Shown here piece after piece: positions 4,406 through 57,014 of a stretch of DNA of 64,000 bases. A program made the position numbers and the translations under genes. Source of the stretch: a virus; the IMG/VR virus record IMGVR_UViG_3300036880_000015, positions 1-64,000 of that record. One strand, 5' to 3'. The notes beneath the pieces are model-generated. The model saw nothing but the letters and a program-made list of their open reading frames with translations. It ran no database searches and was not told where the DNA came from. Numbering within the stretch: the stretch's first letter is position 1; each line of letters opens with the position of its first letter.

Positions 4406-5463
4406 TGTTTCGTCCCCATCTTCATAGCCTGGATGTAGCGCCCGGTCGCCATGACCACCTGAGCATACCGCTTGAGCGCGAACTCGGCCATCTGTGGTTG
4501 TTGAGCTATGCCATCCTTGCCCCAGGCATACGCCAGAGCGAGATATTTGATCCCATGAAGGCAACAATCCGGCGCGAGGAAGCCATCCAAAAAGCCCAGC
4601 GTGTCCGTGTCTCGCACCGCGCAGAGCAACTCGACCGGGAAGTTCGACGATGGCCGCCCGCCAACTCCCCAGCGGTAGAGCCCGGCCCGGTCCTCGAACC
4701 AGCTTTGCAGTGGCCCAACGTAATTAGACTGCCAACTACGATCTTGCTGGACGAGCTCCTCCTGCGTCAACTCGTACAGTCTACGCATGGATTGAATCGT
4801 GCCGCCTGTCGTCGATCCATCGGCGCCGACCTGCCGGTAAGTGATGACGTTGGGTGACGGCGCGCTGATGACCGCGAAGACGCCGGCGAAGGATGGGTCG
4901 GTCGGATTGACCACGGCGAAGGTGTTGTACTGGACCAGGTCCGTCGGCCCGCCCGCGGTGAGCGTTACAACTCCGCCGGCGCGCACCATGCTGGTGATGC
5001 CGATGTCAATGGCCGAGGCCGCGATGCGATCGATCAGGATGGCTGTAGGCGGCGTGGCCTGGTAGATCAGGCCTGTATTCACCGTCTGGAAGAACCGCTG
5101 GTAGAAGCACGGCACGGCCGTCAGGAACTCGTTCTGCGCGCGCGACAGGTACTGCAGCATCTCCGCCTGGGTGAAGATCGGGTCCGTAGCCTGCTGCGTG
5201 GGGAAGGTAGCGCCCCAAACCGGCGCGGCGGCGGCGTGCGCGTTGGCGAAGTTGGCGGTGAAAGTGGTAGGAGAGGGAACCGTTAGGACGGTGACGACTT
5301 CTTGCGTGGCGTTGCCGGGCTGCTCGACGACGAGTTGCGCGCCAGAATACATCGCGTATGTGCTGCCGACGGTGGCCGTAACACCTGCGCCGGCGGCGAT
5401 GGGATTAGAGAGTCCAGCGTAGACCGCAGGCATACAGAGGTGCAGGCTGATCTCAAAGATCAA
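4402..5463 (-). CDS. head-tail adaptor or tail protein
   Basis: About 353 residues from TTG 5463, or 343 from ATG 5433. The frame stays open upstream to a TGA at 5504 and the extra residues (NPGVGYRTAADLIFEIS) look coding, so the true start may be non-standard or disturbed by an indel. The helical stretch with AEMLQYLSRAQNEFL resembles the N-terminal helices of phage adaptor proteins. It contains a beta-type insert (residues about 120-200) and a helical C-terminus. Position among structural genes supports a connector or tail role. Confidence 0.7.
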   Translation of the reverse strand: MIFEISLHLCMPAVYAGLSNPIAAGAGVTATVGSTYAMYSGAQLVVEQPGNATQEVVTVLTVPSPTTFTANFANAHAAAAPVWGATFPTQQATDPIFTQAEMLQYLSRAQNEFLTAVPCFYQRFFQTVNTGLIYQATPPTAILIDRIAASAIDIGITSMVRAGGVVTLTAGGPTDLVQYNTFAVVNPTDPSFAGVFAVISAPSPNVITYRQVGADGSTTGGTIQSMRRLYELTQEELVQQDRSWQSNYVGPLQSWFEDRAGLYRWGVGGRPSSNFPVELLCAVRDTDTLGFLDGFLAPDCCLHGIKYLALAYAWGKDGIAQQPQMAEFALKRYAQVVMATGRYIQAMKMGTKQ

Positions 5464-11855: not shown

Positions 11856-12830
11856 CTAGCCCGTCACCCCGGACAAAATGAAGCCCAGCCGCGGAGCGCT
11901 AACCACGATGTTGCCGCCGAAGCAGAGCTGGCCGGCGGAGTCAACCGAGTTCGGCAGTTCCTTGAACCCGGTGAACCCGAAGCCGAACAACTCGTGGTCC
12001 GAGATGTGGACGTTCATGAAGTCGGTGTTCATGCCGAAAACGTAGCCGCTGGGCACGTACTGGTCGACCACGAGCCGCTGGTTGTTGAACCGGATGGCCG
12101 TGAAGCCGATGTTTTGCGCCTGGTCGACCATGATGTTGTCGTTGACGCGCTGCGCCGGGACCAGCTTGTTGTAGAGCTGGTTGTAGATCGACTGCGTGGT
12201 CGCGATCAGGTTCGGTTGGCGATTGCCAAAGGTGCCCTGGCCGTAGGCCTTCTGCAGTGCGGTGATCGACAGCGGCCCACCGACATTCTGGTAGTAGCCG
12301 TTGATGCCGGTCGAGGCGCCCGAGCCGATAGCCGCGCGCGGCAAGCCGCCGTAGGTCGGATAGTTGGTGCCGTCATCGTACCCGGCGAGCAGGCCGTCCA
12401 ACGCAATCTGCGAGGACACGGTTCCCTGGCCGTCGTTGTAGATGTCGATTGCCAACGCTTGAGCCAGTGCCTGCGAGCCGTTGATCATCTTCTCTTCGAC
12501 GAAGCTCATCACCGCGTTGTTGCCCATGTTGATCGGCAACTGCGTGCCTTGGAGGGTCACGTTCGCGTAGTAGAACTTCACCGCGAAGGTCATCGCCGTG
12601 TCCGTTTGGACATAGGAGATGTCGAAGGTGGAGCCTGGGGCGAACGGACCAGCCTTCAGCGGCGCATACTGGATGGGCTGCTGAATGTAGAGGCCACCCG
12701 GAAAGGGCTTGACTGTATCGCCCTTGAAGATTTGAACGAAAACTGGAGATACCTTGTAATACTCGTCCACGATCTCGGGGACAATCTCCTGCTTCGTTAC
12801 TGCGCTGATGTCATTGATGTTAAGCGCCAT
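11856..12830 (-). CDS. major capsid protein
   Basis: 324 residues (MALNIND). It directly follows the scaffold-like gene, the standard order. The opening SAVTKQEIVPEIVDEYYKVS and central EEKMINGSQALAQALAIDI helix look like HK97-fold capsid proteins: a helical N-arm, a long spine helix, then a beta-rich A-domain (QNIGFTAIRFNNQRLVVD). Length is normal for the fold. Subfamily cannot be set without a search. Confidence 0.85.
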   Translation of the reverse strand: MALNINDISAVTKQEIVPEIVDEYYKVSPVFVQIFKGDTVKPFPGGLYIQQPIQYAPLKAGPFAPGSTFDISYVQTDTAMTFAVKFYYANVTLQGTQLPINMGNNAVMSFVEEKMINGSQALAQALAIDIYNDGQGTVSSQIALDGLLAGYDDGTNYPTYGGLPRAAIGSGASTGINGYYQNVGGPLSITALQKAYGQGTFGNRQPNLIATTQSIYNQLYNKLVPAQRVNDNIMVDQAQNIGFTAIRFNNQRLVVDQYVPSGYVFGMNTDFMNVHISDHELFGFGFTGFKELPNSVDSAGQLCFGGNIVVSAPRLGFILSGVTG

Positions 12831-12862
12831 CACTGGCCTCCGTGGTTAAAGTTTGTTGAGTC

Positions 12863-15261: not shown

Positions 15262-17052
15262 CTACTTCTTCCCGTGTGGATGCTGCATCGCGCCCGCCGC
15301 GCCGGCCATCGCAATCTTCTCTGCGGCCTCTTCTTTGAGCTCGGCTTCAATCTTCTCTGCGTCAGCTTTTGGCACGCCGAGCTTGCGATAAAGGCCTTTG
15401 CGAGACAAGTCTCCGAACTTGCGCATGACGAACGCCACCTGCACCTCGTCCTGTTTCTCGATAGCCAGTAGACTGCCCTTGCGAATCGAGAAGATCGCCT
15501 GGCGGACGAACTCTTCCGGCTCCATTCCCTTTTCCAGCCACTGCCCGTAGAGCGGCTCGAAGTCCGCGTCCGTCAATCCCTTGACGCCGAATTTCTTGAT
15601 GCGGCTCTTGGAGGTCTCGAACTGCATTTTGTTGGCTGTGACCATCGTGCCGACATCAGTGAGAAAACTGTGCAGGCCGCGGCCCATGAAGCGAATCGGA
15701 ATGGACCGGGAGTTCATGATCATCTCCAGCGAGTCGCCGCCGGGAACTTGCTTCTTCTGCGCCACCTGGTTGATGGCCGCCGCTCCCGAGGTCATGTCCT
15801 GCTCTTTTTCCACATCCTGCTTCATTTGGAGGACGTAGGCCGGCAACTCAGGCGGCTTCGGGAACTCAGGAGACTTCGGCGCATTGTTGTTGTACATGAT
15901 CTTGCCGCCGGGCGCGCCAGGATCCATCGAATCCCAAACTGACTGCGCAAACGCCGCCTTCGGCGCCACCATGCGCGGCTCGATCGCCGCCCGGATCATA
16001 TCCATGATCCCGCCGTTGATCCGGTTCACGATGTCGCTCATCATGGCGATCGGCTCCAAAGGTGACGCGCCATTAGGCGACCATGGAACCCGAATCAGCC
16101 GGAGCTTGGCGAAGGGATACATCGCGTGCCAGTAGGGATTCGGACCATCCTGCAGGAGCTTGCCGCCGGCCGCGATAACGAACCTGCCGCGGGGATACCA
16201 GAGGCAACCGGGTTCAACCATGTACGACCAGTTGTAATTGGCGTCGCCGACCCGCTTTGTCTCGCCGGTTTCGTTTTTTGCCCCATCTTTGAACCAAAAT
16301 TGCTTAAGCATGGCCTTGGGATAGCGCGACCGCTTCCCGTCAGCCTGCTTTTTGCCGAGCAACTTTTTGAGCGCCGGGTTCAGCCGGACCCACGAGGCTT
16401 CGGACATCTTGCCGGGCCTGGACATATCCCCGGTTGGCTCATTGCCTTCGAGATCCGGGTGTACATCGTTGGCCAAGTCTCCGTAGGCGCGTTTCAGGGT
16501 TTCGATGGTCACAGGCCAGCGCGCGATAACGCATTCATCGTCCTGGATACGGCTGCCCGCGCCAATCGTCATCACGTTGAGCGGGCCAAGCGGCATGAAC
16601 TCGCAATCGCCCATTCCGTTGTTGAGCGCGGAGTTCCACTGGATTTTGGCGTAGCCCGTGTGGAGAAGTGCCCACATCACCGCCTGGGTCAGCTCCGCCT
16701 CGAAGTCGGTGAATCGCGCCCACATCCCGATCATCTCGTTGAGTAGGTCTTGAAGTTTAGTAAACTCCTCATCCTCGTTAGCGAATTTGACCTGGAAGTC
16801 GGGTTCGATGTCAGTAAGCAGGCCGGCCATCTCAACGAATTGCCGAAAGAGGCGGTTGACCGTGGGGCGGGAGCGTCCAAACCGGGACTTCGCGTTCCAC
16901 TGCTGGCCGGAGATGTAGTCGATGAGCCGGGAGGTCAGACGGATCTCGCGGGAGTCCGCAAGTTCGCGCTCTCCCTCTTCGTAAACGGCATCTGCCCAAG
17001 CGAGAACATCCCGCTCCAGCGCCTTTTCCGGTCTCTCTTTGAAGTCAGCCAT
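15262..17052 (-). CDS. portal protein
   Basis: 596 residues from MADFKERPEK (a TTG at 17076 is possible). Features of P22-like portals: DYISGQQW near residue 50, RPTVNRLFRQFVEMAGLL, then WALLHTGYAKIQWN and PLGPLNVMTIG. The clip/stem region is helical, and the C-terminus is Ala/Glu/Lys-rich. It forms the twelve-fold DNA channel between terminase and adaptors. Synteny with the large terminase upstream is strong support. Confidence 0.9.
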   Translation of the reverse strand: MADFKERPEKALERDVLAWADAVYEEGERELADSREIRLTSRLIDYISGQQWNAKSRFGRSRPTVNRLFRQFVEMAGLLTDIEPDFQVKFANEDEEFTKLQDLLNEMIGMWARFTDFEAELTQAVMWALLHTGYAKIQWNSALNNGMGDCEFMPLGPLNVMTIGAGSRIQDDECVIARWPVTIETLKRAYGDLANDVHPDLEGNEPTGDMSRPGKMSEASWVRLNPALKKLLGKKQADGKRSRYPKAMLKQFWFKDGAKNETGETKRVGDANYNWSYMVEPGCLWYPRGRFVIAAGGKLLQDGPNPYWHAMYPFAKLRLIRVPWSPNGASPLEPIAMMSDIVNRINGGIMDMIRAAIEPRMVAPKAAFAQSVWDSMDPGAPGGKIMYNNNAPKSPEFPKPPELPAYVLQMKQDVEKEQDMTSGAAAINQVAQKKQVPGGDSLEMIMNSRSIPIRFMGRGLHSFLTDVGTMVTANKMQFETSKSRIKKFGVKGLTDADFEPLYGQWLEKGMEPEEFVRQAIFSIRKGSLLAIEKQDEVQVAFVMRKFGDLSRKGLYRKLGVPKADAEKIEAELKEEAAEKIAMAGAAGAMQHPHGKK

Positions 17053-17117
17053 CGCGGAAAGTTTACCTGATGCCAAGGGTTTCGGTGAGAACTTGCGGGG
17101 ATATTTTCCTGAGTTGG

Positions 17118-17615: not shown

Positions 17616-19748
17616 CTACCATTCATCGCCGAAGTCTTCCAATCCTCGCCCTGGCCCGGCGTTGGCCATAGCCTGCTTATACGACCACACCAAATCCGGA
17701 GTGATCTCCGTCGTGGCGAGGCCGTGCTTCGAGTGTAAATCAAATTCTGCGCCCATCGCATCGAAAATCGGCGAGTAGAGTGTATTCGCGTTACAAACCA
17801 GAATTGGCTTTACCTGCCAGCCAGCCTTGCCTTTGATCATTCCGTCGGCTTCCGCTTGAGTGTTGTACTGCCCGCGCTGGCGCATGATGTTGTCGTAGAC
17901 GCCATAGATGTGGAGCTCGCCGCTCTGCCGGACGTGCTCGGTCGCCGCGCTGGTCTTCAAGTGCTTCGTCGTCTCGCGCAGGCAATAGAGGCCGATCATT
18001 GCCGTGAGTACGCCATCATCTTCATTCCCCTGCCCTTGAGATTTCCCGCCAGTCTCTAGCGCCGCAAAGTCTACCATCTCGTCGAGCAGGTCGGCATCTC
18101 GGATAACAACTGTCCGGTCGAGCAGTGCCTCATTCATGGTTCCAATAATCTCGTCGCGAGTCTTTGATGTGGTCAGCCAATGCAGGTAATTGCTCGCTTG
18201 ATGCGTCAGCCGGTCTTTGAATTGCGGACGATACAGGTTTGGATAATCCATGTCGCGCAGTTCGTTGCCGGTCGTGATACCGTCCTTCATGTATTCGTTG
18301 GCTACTTCGGCACCATTGTAGAAGAGGCCGATCGCCGCGACAACGTGCGCAAATTTCTTCGGAGGTATCCAGCCCCACCAGGTCGCAACTTGTGTATCTG
18401 GCTCTATACCTTGCCCGGCACGAAAAACATTCGCAACCGAGAAGTCTCCTCCATTTCCTAGCGCAACGTCATCGGACACGTAGTAAGTTGCCCCCTGCTC
18501 CGGCATCTCCCAGATATGCATTCTCTTCCCGCCACGTCCCGACTTGCGCCTTGGGAGAATCTCATCGTCGGCTACCGGCATAATGTCGTCAGTGTTGAAT
18601 CGCGGCGGCTCCATCGAAACCAGACTAATCTCTCCGGCATAGAGCGGCTTGCAAACCTTGTTGATTTCCTGCCATTCAAGAGAGTCGCGATCAAACGCGC
18701 ATAGGCCTGATGATTGAAACGCTTCATTTGGTGTGAGAGGATACGACTCAAGGAATCCAGCCTTGGTCCCCGAGCGCTTCGCTGCGCGCAGACGAACACG
18801 CCGGAAGTTCCAGAATGTATCCGGTATCTCAAAGTGCTCTTCTTTTTTTATGCGCTCGTTAAACGTCGTCTCTTCTTCAGATAGTTCGAATGTACTCTTG
18901 AGTGGGAGATAGTATTTCTTGACCTTGTAAACTGGAATCCAAACCGGGCGTATATCGCTATCTCCATCCACTGCCGCGCACCACTGGTCATAAAACAAAC
19001 CTTGGCGGCCATATCCGGTTGACTCAAATACTTGGAAAGTGTCGAGCGCATTAAGAGATGGCTTTATATCTGACTCCCATATTTCATCGTTAGGCCACCT
19101 TGAAACTTCGCTTCCATGTAAAGCTCTTATAGTTCTTCCAATCGATACCCCGCTGGTTTGTGTTGCCGGAGAAACCTGCAATGTTGAGCCAAGTCCAGGG
19201 TCAACCAGTCTTTCCTTTTCGTCAGACCGCTGAAACTCAATAGCTCCCTTCTTCGTCTTATACATATACTCTGGCCTCAGCCACCACGGAAGATTCGCAT
19301 AGGCATTCAAGCTGAGTTTGTAGATATGCTCCGATGTTACCTCATTCTGTGCAATAATCATTGTGAAGCAGTGCGGAGTGAAGATAGTCCGATGGAACAT
19401 AGCTGCCGCAGTCCACACCGAGATACCTGTCTGTCGCGGCTTGAGAACGATGATCTTGCAATAACCGTTCGCCGCCCACTCTTCACACATCGCCTGATAA
19501 ACAATCTCTTGATGGTCCCAGAATGGATAGAGGGATTTTAAGACACCTTGCTCGGTTGTGATGAAGTGGTAGTTCTCAAGATAGTAGCGGAGGTCGAGAG
19601 CTTTTTGCACTTCGTTTTCTATGAATACAAGACCATCTTTGGGAAGTTCCGCCCAAGCGCGAGTAATATCCTGATCGCAGCGGATATAGTGGTCTTGCAG
19701 AACATCGATAGCGTCGTTGAGTGAGGAGTCTTTACGTGGTACTCTCAT
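17616..19748 (-). CDS. terminase large subunit
   Basis: 710 residues. The ATPase half has a deviant Walker A, KPRQTGIS (103-110), typical of terminases. The nuclease half contains DDVALGNGGDFSVANVF with the catalytic acidic residues, and a second acidic cluster near DDGVLTAMIGL. The protein drives DNA into the prohead through the portal and cuts concatemers. The C-terminal ~100 residues beyond the nuclease are unusual in length. Confidence 0.93.
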   Translation of the reverse strand: MRVPRKDSSLNDAIDVLQDHYIRCDQDITRAWAELPKDGLVFIENEVQKALDLRYYLENYHFITTEQGVLKSLYPFWDHQEIVYQAMCEEWAANGYCKIIVLKPRQTGISVWTAAAMFHRTIFTPHCFTMIIAQNEVTSEHIYKLSLNAYANLPWWLRPEYMYKTKKGAIEFQRSDEKERLVDPGLGSTLQVSPATQTSGVSIGRTIRALHGSEVSRWPNDEIWESDIKPSLNALDTFQVFESTGYGRQGLFYDQWCAAVDGDSDIRPVWIPVYKVKKYYLPLKSTFELSEEETTFNERIKKEEHFEIPDTFWNFRRVRLRAAKRSGTKAGFLESYPLTPNEAFQSSGLCAFDRDSLEWQEINKVCKPLYAGEISLVSMEPPRFNTDDIMPVADDEILPRRKSGRGGKRMHIWEMPEQGATYYVSDDVALGNGGDFSVANVFRAGQGIEPDTQVATWWGWIPPKKFAHVVAAIGLFYNGAEVANEYMKDGITTGNELRDMDYPNLYRPQFKDRLTHQASNYLHWLTTSKTRDEIIGTMNEALLDRTVVIRDADLLDEMVDFAALETGGKSQGQGNEDDGVLTAMIGLYCLRETTKHLKTSAATEHVRQSGELHIYGVYDNIMRQRGQYNTQAEADGMIKGKAGWQVKPILVCNANTLYSPIFDAMGAEFDLHSKHGLATTEITPDLVWSYKQAMANAGPGRGLEDFGDEW

Positions 19749-19755
19749 CTATTCT

Positions 19756-20085
19756 TCACCCAGATACTCGTTTGTAGCGACCTTCGCTAATCGCCTTAAT
19801 TGTCGTTTCGTATGCCCATCCACATTTTGGGCAAATTGGAGGAACTCCAAAGTACCAACGAAAGCGAGTTCCACATCCCCACACGCGGCCAGGATACTCT
19901 TTCTCGTATTCAGTAAGATCTTTTGGATCCCAGTTTGATTTCCCGTGATCGCAAACATGCTCATACATAATCGGACCAATCACCTCGTCGTCGGCTTTAT
20001 TGATCTCAACTACTCCAAATGGAGTCGCCACTGCCGCTATAGCAACAGTTCCTATGTTAAAGAATTTTCTCCGAGACTCATCCAT
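19756..20085 (-). CDS. Tat-signal-like zinc protein in the packaging module
   Basis: 109 residues from MDESRRKFF. AGGAGG lies a few bases upstream, so the longer frame is not used. Residues 4-10 (SRRKFFN) match the twin-arginine export motif, followed by a weakly hydrophobic stretch ending near residue 26. The rest carries CDHG, WGCGTRFRWYF and CPKCGW, a probable zinc site. If exported, it would be a periplasmic phage protein. It overlaps the upstream gene by 8 bases. Confidence 0.65.
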   Translation of the reverse strand: MDESRRKFFNIGTVAIAAVATPFGVVEINKADDEVIGPIMYEHVCDHGKSNWDPKDLTEYEKEYPGRVWGCGTRFRWYFGVPPICPKCGWAYETTIKAISEGRYKRVSG

Positions 20086-20794
20086 TGTTTTCCTCCTCGT
20101 CTTCTTCGCCGTTCTCGTTTTCGTCTCCGCCAAAATCCTTGAATTCGTCGGCAATTTCGTCTTCGGCGCTGACTACCTCGGCCTCTTCGATCTCCTGTTC
20201 GTTCGCCAGACCGATCTGCTCGCGCTTCTTGCGAAGGATTTGCTCGAAACTCATGCCGGGACCGAAACCACCGCCGGCAATACCTCCGGCATTGAATTGT
20301 TGATTCAACTGCAGAGCTGGAGTCTTCGGCTGGACCGTCTCCATCATGCCGCGGACTTGCTCAACAGTTTTCAGGCGCATCGCGGTGTCGGGATGGGTTT
20401 TCACCTTCCCGGTTTCCTTGTCCACGAAGATGACCTTCTCTGCTTTCATGCCGTCTTTGAAAACAGTGCTCACGCCTTCAAGTTGATCCATCAGCACCTG
20501 GACTGCTTTGACGTTGAGCACGGAGAGTTGGTTGCGGAATGTCCATTCCTTGATGCGGTCGATCGACGCCTTGACGGTGAGCGGGTTGACGCCCTCCTCG
20601 GCCGCCAACTGCATTTCGGTCTTCTGGAGGCCTTCGATCTGGAACCAGCGCCGGAGATCCGCCTCGGTGGGACTCGCCAGATTCCGATAGCGGTTCACGC
20701 GGCTCTTGCTGCGCACGGCCAGCGCTGAGCCCGGCGGCGGTATGGGAGCTTTGAGTGGTCCGTCTCCCCGCTTTTTCTTTGCCGCTGCGGGCAT
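20078..20794 (-). CDS. putative terminase small subunit
   Basis: 238 residues. A basic N-terminus, a helical region with KTEMQLAAEEGVNPLTVKAS that could be a helix-turn-helix, a middle oligomerisation region, and a very acidic tail (last 40 residues mostly Glu/Asp). The position just before the large subunit fits the DNA-recognition subunit. Sequence family not recognised. Confidence 0.6.
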   Translation of the reverse strand: MPAAAKKKRGDGPLKAPIPPPGSALAVRSKSRVNRYRNLASPTEADLRRWFQIEGLQKTEMQLAAEEGVNPLTVKASIDRIKEWTFRNQLSVLNVKAVQVLMDQLEGVSTVFKDGMKAEKVIFVDKETGKVKTHPDTAMRLKTVEQVRGMMETVQPKTPALQLNQQFNAGGIAGGGFGPGMSFEQILRKKREQIGLANEQEIEEAEVVSAEDEIADEFKDFGGDENENGEEDEEENNG

Positions 20795-55690: not shown

Positions 55691-55869
55691 CTGCGCAATC
55701 CTCGCATCTCGCAGTATTGACTATAGGGAATAAGAACAGCCAATGTCTCATGGCGCTTGGTTACGACAAACTTCAAGCACTCCATCTCTCGCAAGTCTTT
55801 TCTTGTAAGACGGCTGAGTTTGGAAATTGACAGATGTTTCGTATCGCCCTTGTTACGCAGATGAGCCAT
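55687..55869 (-). CDS. Phd/YefM-like antitoxin-type regulator
   Basis: 60 residues. ISKLSRLTRKDLREME, then FVVTKRHETLAVLIPYSQY follows the Phd/YefM fold: beta-helix-helix with VLIPYxxY. No RelE/Doc partner adjacent. Coupled to the integrase gene, so it may control integrase or integrated state. Confidence 0.6.
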   Translation of the reverse strand: MAHLRNKGDTKHLSISKLSRLTRKDLREMECLKFVVTKRHETLAVLIPYSQYCEMRGLRR

Positions 55870-57014
55870 TACGCGGTCCTCCGTGGCAGCATCTCCACAA
55901 TCTTAGCGTTCTCGGGCCGCAGATGCTCCGCGCTATCCCGGCCGCCATAGGTGTTGATCGTCGTCGCGATTTTGGCGTGACGCATCAGGCCGCGCTGCGT
56001 CTCCATGTCGATGCCGAGAGTGCGCATCATGGCGCGGTGCGTATGCCTGAAAGAATGGAAGCCAAGCCCAGGCAGACCGATGCGCTCGCCAGCCGGCTGC
56101 AGGTACTCTGCGCGCAACCAATCTCGATCTAATGGCCTTCCCGTCCGCTCCGAGCAGAAAATCCAGCGGCTCTTGAGTGCTTCGTGCGTCTTCCAGCCGC
56201 GCAGAATTTCGATGAGCGCGTCGTGGAGCGGCAACGTGGCCGCCGAAGTCTTGCTCTTCGTGTCGTTGGCCTTGCCGTGGACTACGCTGCGCTGGATGTG
56301 GATGGTTTTGGCCTCGAAATTGCAGTCTTCCCATCGGAGGCCGAGGATCTCACTGACGCGCAAGCCGAGCCCTGCCGCCATTTGTACCATGACTTTCACG
56401 ACCTCCGGCAACTGCGGATCGTCGAGCAATGCCTGGTACTGATCCAACGTGAGGATAACGAGTTCCTTGGCGCGCGCGTTCCCTTTCAACCTTACCAACT
56501 CAAGAGGATTTCTCTGCGTCTGCAGCGCGCCCCACTTCATCCCGTGCTCGATGAGGGTATGGAAGATATTCTTGACCTGGGCGCAAAACAATGGGGAGAC
56601 TGGCGGCTTGACGCCGGGTTTGGGGTGGCGCCCGATCACCTTGAGATCTTTGAGCCAATCCTCCACGGCAACCATGTCGAGTGAGAACTGGTCGAGGCGC
56701 ACATCACCCCACCGCTCGCGGATTCTCCGAAAGATTGACTTGTAGCTGGCCGCGGTCGCTTCGCGCTCCGGCATGGCCTCGCGCTCGTACTTGTCGATGA
56801 GATTGCCCACGGTGATGATCTCTGTCGGCGTGAAGTTGATGATACTGCGCATCTTCTCGGCTGCTTTCTCTGCCGAGGCCTTCGTCGGATGCTGCTTGAT
56901 GGTCCCGATGTAATCTGAGCGCTGAATGCCGTCGAGCCGATAGCGCAATCGCCAGATGTCGCCCGACTTCTGATGGACTCGAATGACGCTGCCTTTTTGC
57001 CAGGAGGTTCGCAT
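55869..57014 (-). CDS. int: tyrosine recombinase (phage integrase)
   Basis: 381 residues. N-terminal arm-binding domain to about residue 65 (beta-like, GDIWRLRYRLDG), SAM-like core-binding domain (about 68-170), catalytic domain from 180. Catalytic residues in place: R219 (GLRVSEI), a Lys near 253-255, H320 and R323 (HSFRHTH), H346 (RHAK) and Y356 (NTYGG). It integrates or excises the phage genome at attP. Own promoter with ribosome site. Confidence 0.93.
   Translation of the reverse strand: MRTSWQKGSVIRVHQKSGDIWRLRYRLDGIQRSDYIGTIKQHPTKASAEKAAEKMRSIINFTPTEIITVGNLIDKYEREAMPEREATAASYKSIFRRIRERWGDVRLDQFSLDMVAVEDWLKDLKVIGRHPKPGVKPPVSPLFCAQVKNIFHTLIEHGMKWGALQTQRNPLELVRLKGNARAKELVILTLDQYQALLDDPQLPEVVKVMVQMAAGLGLRVSEILGLRWEDCNFEAKTIHIQRSVVHGKANDTKSKTSAATLPLHDALIEILRGWKTHEALKSRWIFCSERTGRPLDRDWLRAEYLQPAGERIGLPGLGFHSFRHTHRAMMRTLGIDMETQRGLMRHAKIATTINTYGGRDSAEHLRPENAKIVEMLPRRTA

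Follow-up and report, generated by a model that had tools for sequence, protein, structure and literature searches.

Several described systems come close to the gene considered here, which we call gene X and which lies in a 64-kb stretch of viral DNA (the window, i.e. the whole stretch that was analysed). Bacterial substrates of the twin-arginine (Tat) route, represented by TIGR01409, PF10518 and PF10399, resemble the X protein in the RR-x-F motif near the start, in a moderately hydrophobic uncharged stretch, and in a domain that would need folding with metal before export. Unlike them, X is phage-encoded within a packaging block, and the window copy lies under the curated cut-offs and is without an AxA site. 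Small zinc ribbons and fingers (LysW, PF12760) share with X a C-P-x-C-G knuckle and two further cysteines, but the first two cysteines of X are about 25 residues apart and form no CxxC, and the resemblance in profile and fold is weak; all matches are sub-cut-off or have Z below 3, and X is in no family. Superinfection exclusion genes and envelope morons of phages are likewise small accessory genes with a predicted envelope product in an integrase-bearing phage; however, X sits between terminase genes, where its own promoter was not found, and such proteins use Sec or lipoprotein export, whereas X is predicted to use Tat. Antiholin RI of phage T4 is a periplasmic phage protein, as X is predicted to be, and has been proposed to sense superinfecting phage DNA in the periplasm; unlike X, RI is described with a Sec-type cleavable signal and has no zinc ribbon (PMC8385771).

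We regard X as probably an accessory, Tat-exported, zinc-ribbon-like protein. We are moderately confident of the fuller reading, in which X would be an accessory gene inserted between terS and terL whose product, a metal-bound protein with four cysteines, would be carried by Tat to the envelope. The features concerned are listed below.

19756..20085, minus strand: gene X, 109-residue protein with a Tat-like leader and a four-cysteine domain (ORF translation; relatives in viral contigs)
19984..20085, minus strand: X leader, residues 1-34, MDESRRKFFNIGTVAIAAVATPFGVVEINKADDE (hydrophobicity, alignment and low model confidence)
20068..20073, minus strand: twin-arginine codons R5-R6, CGG AGA (RR in 8 distinct intact leaders)
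19759..19983, minus strand: X core, residues 35-109, with C45, C71, C85 and C88 (cysteine alignment and model confidence)
20078..20794, minus strand: putative terS, 238 residues (position only; 8-nt overlap with X)
20092..20097, minus strand: AGGAGG, a Shine-Dalgarno-like hexamer within the end of putative terS (sequence reading)
17616..19748, minus strand: TerL gene, 710 residues (PHROG terminase families, best annotated match 4e-10)
15262..17076, minus strand: portal gene, 604 residues (phrog_156 portal, 2.9e-12; PF23899 at 23.8 bits, missing the cut-off of 30)
11856-12833: major head protein gene (phrog_9953, 1.1e-24)
55869-57014: tyrosine-type integrase gene (phrog_1, 1.2e-54)

The original prediction had described a reading frame at 19756-20085 with SRRKFFN, a hydrophobic stretch and cysteines, and translation confirms it. 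The frame has an ATG start and 109 codons plus stop exactly within these limits on the minus strand; the protein begins MDESRRKFF, with SRRKFFN at residues 4-10, and contains four cysteines. Its proposed place between the terminase genes also stands, with TerL identified by the PHROG families and TerS by position only, as the 238-residue ORF has no Pfam family and no PHROG match better than E 0.027. The start of X shares 8 nt with the 3' end of that ORF, the spacing from AGGAGG to the ATG is 6 nt, and the stop of X is 7 nt from the start of TerL. No promoter-like site was found at X on its own strand, and therefore X is probably expressed with its neighbours. No tRNA genes were found in the 64-kb window. 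The presence of an integrase gene makes a lysogenic role of X possible.

To judge from the sequences, the X N-terminus is best read as a Tat signal. The best 13-residue window after RR, VAIAAVATPFGVV, has a mean Kyte-Doolittle value of 2.2 and no charged residues. RR is invariant among the 8 distinct intact X leaders, in which it is written with 7 different codon pairs, and RR together with the hydrophobic stretch is kept in relatives of X down to about 35-55% identity. The window X falls short of all curated Tat cut-offs (PF10399, 16.4 bits vs 24) and has no NCBIfam family, while TIGR01409 was passed by one of the eight X proteins scanned with NCBIfam (window, L002, L015, L044, L050, L051, L061 and L062), namely L051 (21.2 vs 16.7). 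The Tat signal claimed earlier is thus borne out by conservation and by a relative that passes a curated profile, and is not borne out by such profiles for the window protein itself.

The leader changes fast, though RR and hydrophobicity persist. Between the window and L002 it differs by 6 nonsynonymous and 0 synonymous changes, so that it drifts within constraints. AxA-type sites were seen by eye in L061 (AVA-AE), L062 (AYA-AS), L050 (VSA-TP) and L015 and L044 (AVA-V), but no AxA signal peptidase site was seen by eye in the window X (PFGVVEIN) or in L002. Anchored Tat substrates do not need such a site, and its absence suggests an uncleaved anchor in both proteins; the window X is perhaps membrane-anchored.

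The core is the more constant part of the protein. C45, C71, C85 and C88 (window numbering) are invariant in 14 aligned X cores, in the conserved contexts G-C-G-T-x-F-x-W and C-P-x-C; the X of L050, outside this alignment, has all four cysteines, with I replacing T in the first context. There is one CxxC knuckle, although all four cysteines are invariant. In an AlphaFold2 model of the window X the mean pLDDT is 73.6, with values by block of about 82-91 from residue 41 and below 50 at residues 1-27. Foldseek searches at a threshold of E 0.001 gave no match in PDB for either the window model or an L068 core model, and none in BFVD when the window model was the query. The remaining resemblances are to LysW (Z 2.7 over 43 residues, rmsd 2.4; weak), to LysW and small ribosomal chains in a second fold comparison (Z 2.0 to 2.7), to the zinc finger 1mey (E 2e-4 over 21 profile positions) and, for the X of L045, to PF12760 Zn_ribbon_IS1595 (20.1 bits, below the cut-off of 25.4). 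In these models, the likeness to LysW and ribosomal chains gives a hint of a zinc ribbon and nothing stronger. The folded metal protein proposed originally is nevertheless supported by the invariant cysteines, weak as the zinc-ribbon and zinc-finger resemblances are, and the core is probably a metal-binding, zinc-ribbon-like domain. It is under purifying selection: dN/dS between the window and L002 is 0.21 for the X core and 0.06 for TerL.

Other identities were considered and rejected. A Rieske protein is not indicated, because the Pfam scan of the window X gave no Rieske domain, and of the Rieske-type Tat anchor PF10399 the N-terminal model alone matched, below its cut-off. Nor does the core look like a fragment of the phage's own proteins: when it was compared with 10 window proteins, with 200 shuffles each, there was no clear excess over shuffles, and in the lowest case (ORF 9038) 11 of 200 equalled or exceeded the score. 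PADLOC host-defence models gave no match among 5 proteins scanned.

Relatives of X were found in at least 30 other viral contigs by five viral scans with X or alignments, one of which used the L015 paralogue as query. These scans were pattern-based, and the contigs are metagenomic and many are fragmentary. According to the translations of 30 relative contigs, the leader is intact in 13 (L002-L004, L016, L042, L043, L044, L050/L063, L051, L059-L062), decayed in 2 (L064 with QR and L065 with RR, each lacking a hydrophobic stretch) and not seen in 15 (L045, L046, L053/L067, L054-L057, L058/L066, L068, L069-L073, L074). Within the last set, the N-terminal piece was read in L069 alone, with L070-L073 showing the same C-terminal piece, and the X start of L046 is uncertain, with no hydrophobic leader upstream in frame. 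At least three phage groups have X, and wherever its locus could be placed, a terminase or portal gene is nearby. In the window's group it lies between TerS and TerL; in a second group, whose TerL is about 30% identical to the window TerL over part of its length, it is downstream of TerL and just upstream of portal; in a third (L061) it lies between TerL and portal, which are 30% and 35% identical to those of the window. No terminase or portal match was seen in the stretch of L074 that was examined. Among 30 TerL relatives (37 TerL loci, of which 7 without a TerL start were excluded), the TerS-TerL slot is empty in 21, is occupied by X in 6 and by a different small ORF in 3; gene X, with its conserved RR, hydrophobic leader and four invariant cysteines, is thus inserted or lost from relative to relative. 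The other small ORFs in the slot, in L017, L018 and L023, are unrelated.

Outside these viral contigs, two pattern-limited scans of bacterial genome contigs, based on the A2 and A4 alignments, turned up 29 and 33 candidate stretches, of which 0 were confirmed; bacterial homologues may nevertheless exist. No match among cultured phages was obtained for the X of L045, the X of L062 or the L079 leader protein, and the window X matched 23 mycobacteriophage records over 55% of its length with E values no better than 0.4, which were judged to be chance. In open-licence PMC literature, with subscription papers mostly outside its scope, none of the titles and abstracts listed describes such a protein.

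The uneven distribution of the leader bears on whether the domain works outside the cytoplasm at all. In one alternative, the domain would be cytoplasmic, with a role in packaging or gene regulation, and the leader would be a membrane tether on the inner face or a passing addition. In relatives without the signal the core is retained, close to terminase or portal genes, and leader presence needs at least two changes in the X core tree, in which a single clade of leader-bearing rows is not rejected (p 0.19); one origin of the leader plus losses is possible on this tree. Moreover, L064 and L065 have lost the hydrophobic stretch in their decayed leaders, and dN/dS between their two cores is still 0.18. 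Because signal-less relatives are under selection, the core would also be useful in the cytoplasm, or the exported use would be one of several, and judging by these sequences the core need not be exported. Against this alternative, every intact leader keeps RR, which a plain tether would not need, and we consider it unlikely.

We infer export, anchoring and metal binding for X, and the preferred reading, that of a Tat-exported protein, implies the following course. X would be an insertion that separates the small terminase gene from the large one in a temperate-type soil phage, and would probably be translated together with both. Its protein would fold in the cytoplasm with a metal bound by the four cysteines, and the host Tat translocon would carry the folded form to the inner membrane or periplasm. 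The window X would probably stay anchored by its leader, because the AxA site of relatives is missing, with the zinc-ribbon-like domain outside. Its role at the envelope, late in infection or in the lysogen, is a matter for guesswork. The likeliest single role would be interference with the entry of a second phage's DNA, a guess that we hold tentatively; superinfection exclusion, suggested in the original prediction, would fit a lysogeny-capable phage and an envelope placement, but half of the relatives lack the leader and no PADLOC family matched. Tuning of lysis timing is the next likeliest envelope role and, as a guess, an unlikely one. Taken as an explanation of the gene, by analogy with T4 antiholin RI sensing superinfecting phage DNA, lysis tuning from the periplasm would suit a predicted exported domain encoded in an apparent late gene block, but the signal peptide described for RI is of the cleavable kind and differs from a Tat signal (PMC8385771), and this explanation seems quite improbable. 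If X is exported, then phages like this one place a metal protein at the envelope by the host's route for folded proteins, and do so from a gene translated beside the terminase.

In the second group, a near-identical leader, MNRRSFFKFLGIGAATAAVAPK, was found on unrelated small proteins. Nine loci were mapped (L054, L068 with two genes, and L075-L081), and L082, which is unmapped, repeats the leader of L078. The leader genes are listed below.

L054:1691-2434, L075:6001-6717 and L076:2760-3503: leader followed by a TerL nuclease-like domain
L068:4176-4553 and 4556-4879, and L077-L081: leader on unrelated small proteins

All ten leader genes in the nine loci lie upstream of a DUF551-type gene (the L054 copy matches PF04448 at 22.9 bits vs 22), and TerL lies upstream of them in 8 of the 9 loci, L054 having no full TerL on its contig. 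Their position near TerL in L075-L082 is partly selected, because these were fetched with patterns that included MNRRSFFK. A leader-only scan gave 146 stretches, of which 15 were confirmed, on the same 10 contigs (L054, L068, L075-L082) and 5 weaker ones (L092-L096). TIGR01409 was passed by seven of the nine leader proteins scanned (the first of L068 and L076-L081); those of L054 and L075 fall just short, and the second of L068 was outside the scan. The earlier statement that phage packaging genes rarely encode exported proteins is too cautious for these relatives, in whose terminase-portal interval several genes with Tat leaders occur.

The cargoes behind this leader are diverse. Those of L054, L075 and L076 match TerLs of the group at E 1e-25 to 6e-37 (small database). 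In an alignment with full-length TerLs, the Asp of GVDTA(D/H)G is changed to E or Q and the DD preceding R-x-RAAAQS is lost; we take these acidic residues to be catalytic in TerL nucleases, and the cargo is predicted from its sequence to be catalytically dead. A portal-like segment of 41-49 residues occurs in L078 and one L068 gene (4e-12 and 2.5e-6), and a weak portal-like piece of 10-16 residues in L076 and L079. The other L068 gene, L079 and L081 have in common a domain of about 100 residues ending GxYxFIQ, with 39-62% identity, which resembles the L055 cargo and the signal-less L058 protein. The L077 cargo resembles the podovirus packaging protein PF05894 below threshold (17.4 vs 25), and no match was found for the L080 cargo. 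In the window's own group, records L019 and L023 also contain genes with Tat-like leaders (L109, L110 and L115), located elsewhere in these relatives of the window phage, whose cargo is 30-41 residues resembling the major head protein. The identity to that protein is 50% over 30 for L109 and L110 and 27% over 41 for L115; for L109 and L115, 0 of 1000 shuffles reached the score, and L110 was outside the shuffle test.

These genes admit an extended reading in which the Tat leader would be a reusable tag, spliced before different cargoes in a single TerL-DUF551 interval of one group. Several of the cargoes would come from the phage's own proteins: the TerL nuclease, with acidic residues stripped, a portal segment and, in the window's group, short major-capsid-like segments. 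Once exported, such self-derived decoys and X would be in place at the envelope to encounter the same phage's DNA or particles on arrival and to exclude superinfection. We regard this as a long shot; a single leader carried by many cargoes, copies of the phage's own packaging parts among them, would give phages a new means of making exported proteins. Alternatively, the function could lie in the leader itself, which might for instance occupy the Tat translocon of the host, with the following cargo interchangeable. The unrelated cargoes in nine loci agree with this, as do leader codons 1-21, where 68% of synonymous and 5% of nonsynonymous sites differ (45 non-independent pairs). However, the leader of X itself is poorly conserved outside the motif, the X core is invariant at its cysteines, and signs of constraint are seen in the TerL-like and beta cargoes too; we consider this account very improbable.

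As for the motif itself, X is the sole ORF within the 64-kb window that qualifies under strict Tat-leader criteria. Looser criteria gave 22 matches per 600 kb of random sequence, and the loose scan also gave several chance-looking ORFs, some antisense to known genes. Since looser criteria match random sequence, the motif alone is weak evidence, and the case for a Tat signal is made by the conservation of RR and leader in relatives. That the leader arose by chance or is an ordinary Sec-type membrane anchor with an incidental RR, as the failure of the window X at all curated Tat cut-offs and the loose matches might suggest, is highly unlikely, because RR is kept in 8 distinct leaders despite codon changes and the strict criteria expect 0.13 per 64 kb (mean of 30 order-2 Markov sequences of the window's length; maximum 2).

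Some further observations were made among the contigs. On the contigs of L015, L016 and L042, a further small gene lies upstream of X, and its first 30 nt are almost those of X. This paralogue-like gene (L015:1329-1583) encodes MDQSKRKFFG and CxxC...CxxC, with KR replacing RR and no hydrophobic stretch. The X of L044 (2521-2850) has an in-frame TAG in mid-core. In L069 (4654-5937), an insert of about 1.3 kb splits X; it contains an open frame of 396 residues, the end of which is presumably TnpB-like by its motif. The TerL frames of L046 (1295-4249) and L081 (1245-5282) are overlong, with inserts that look intein-like by eye.
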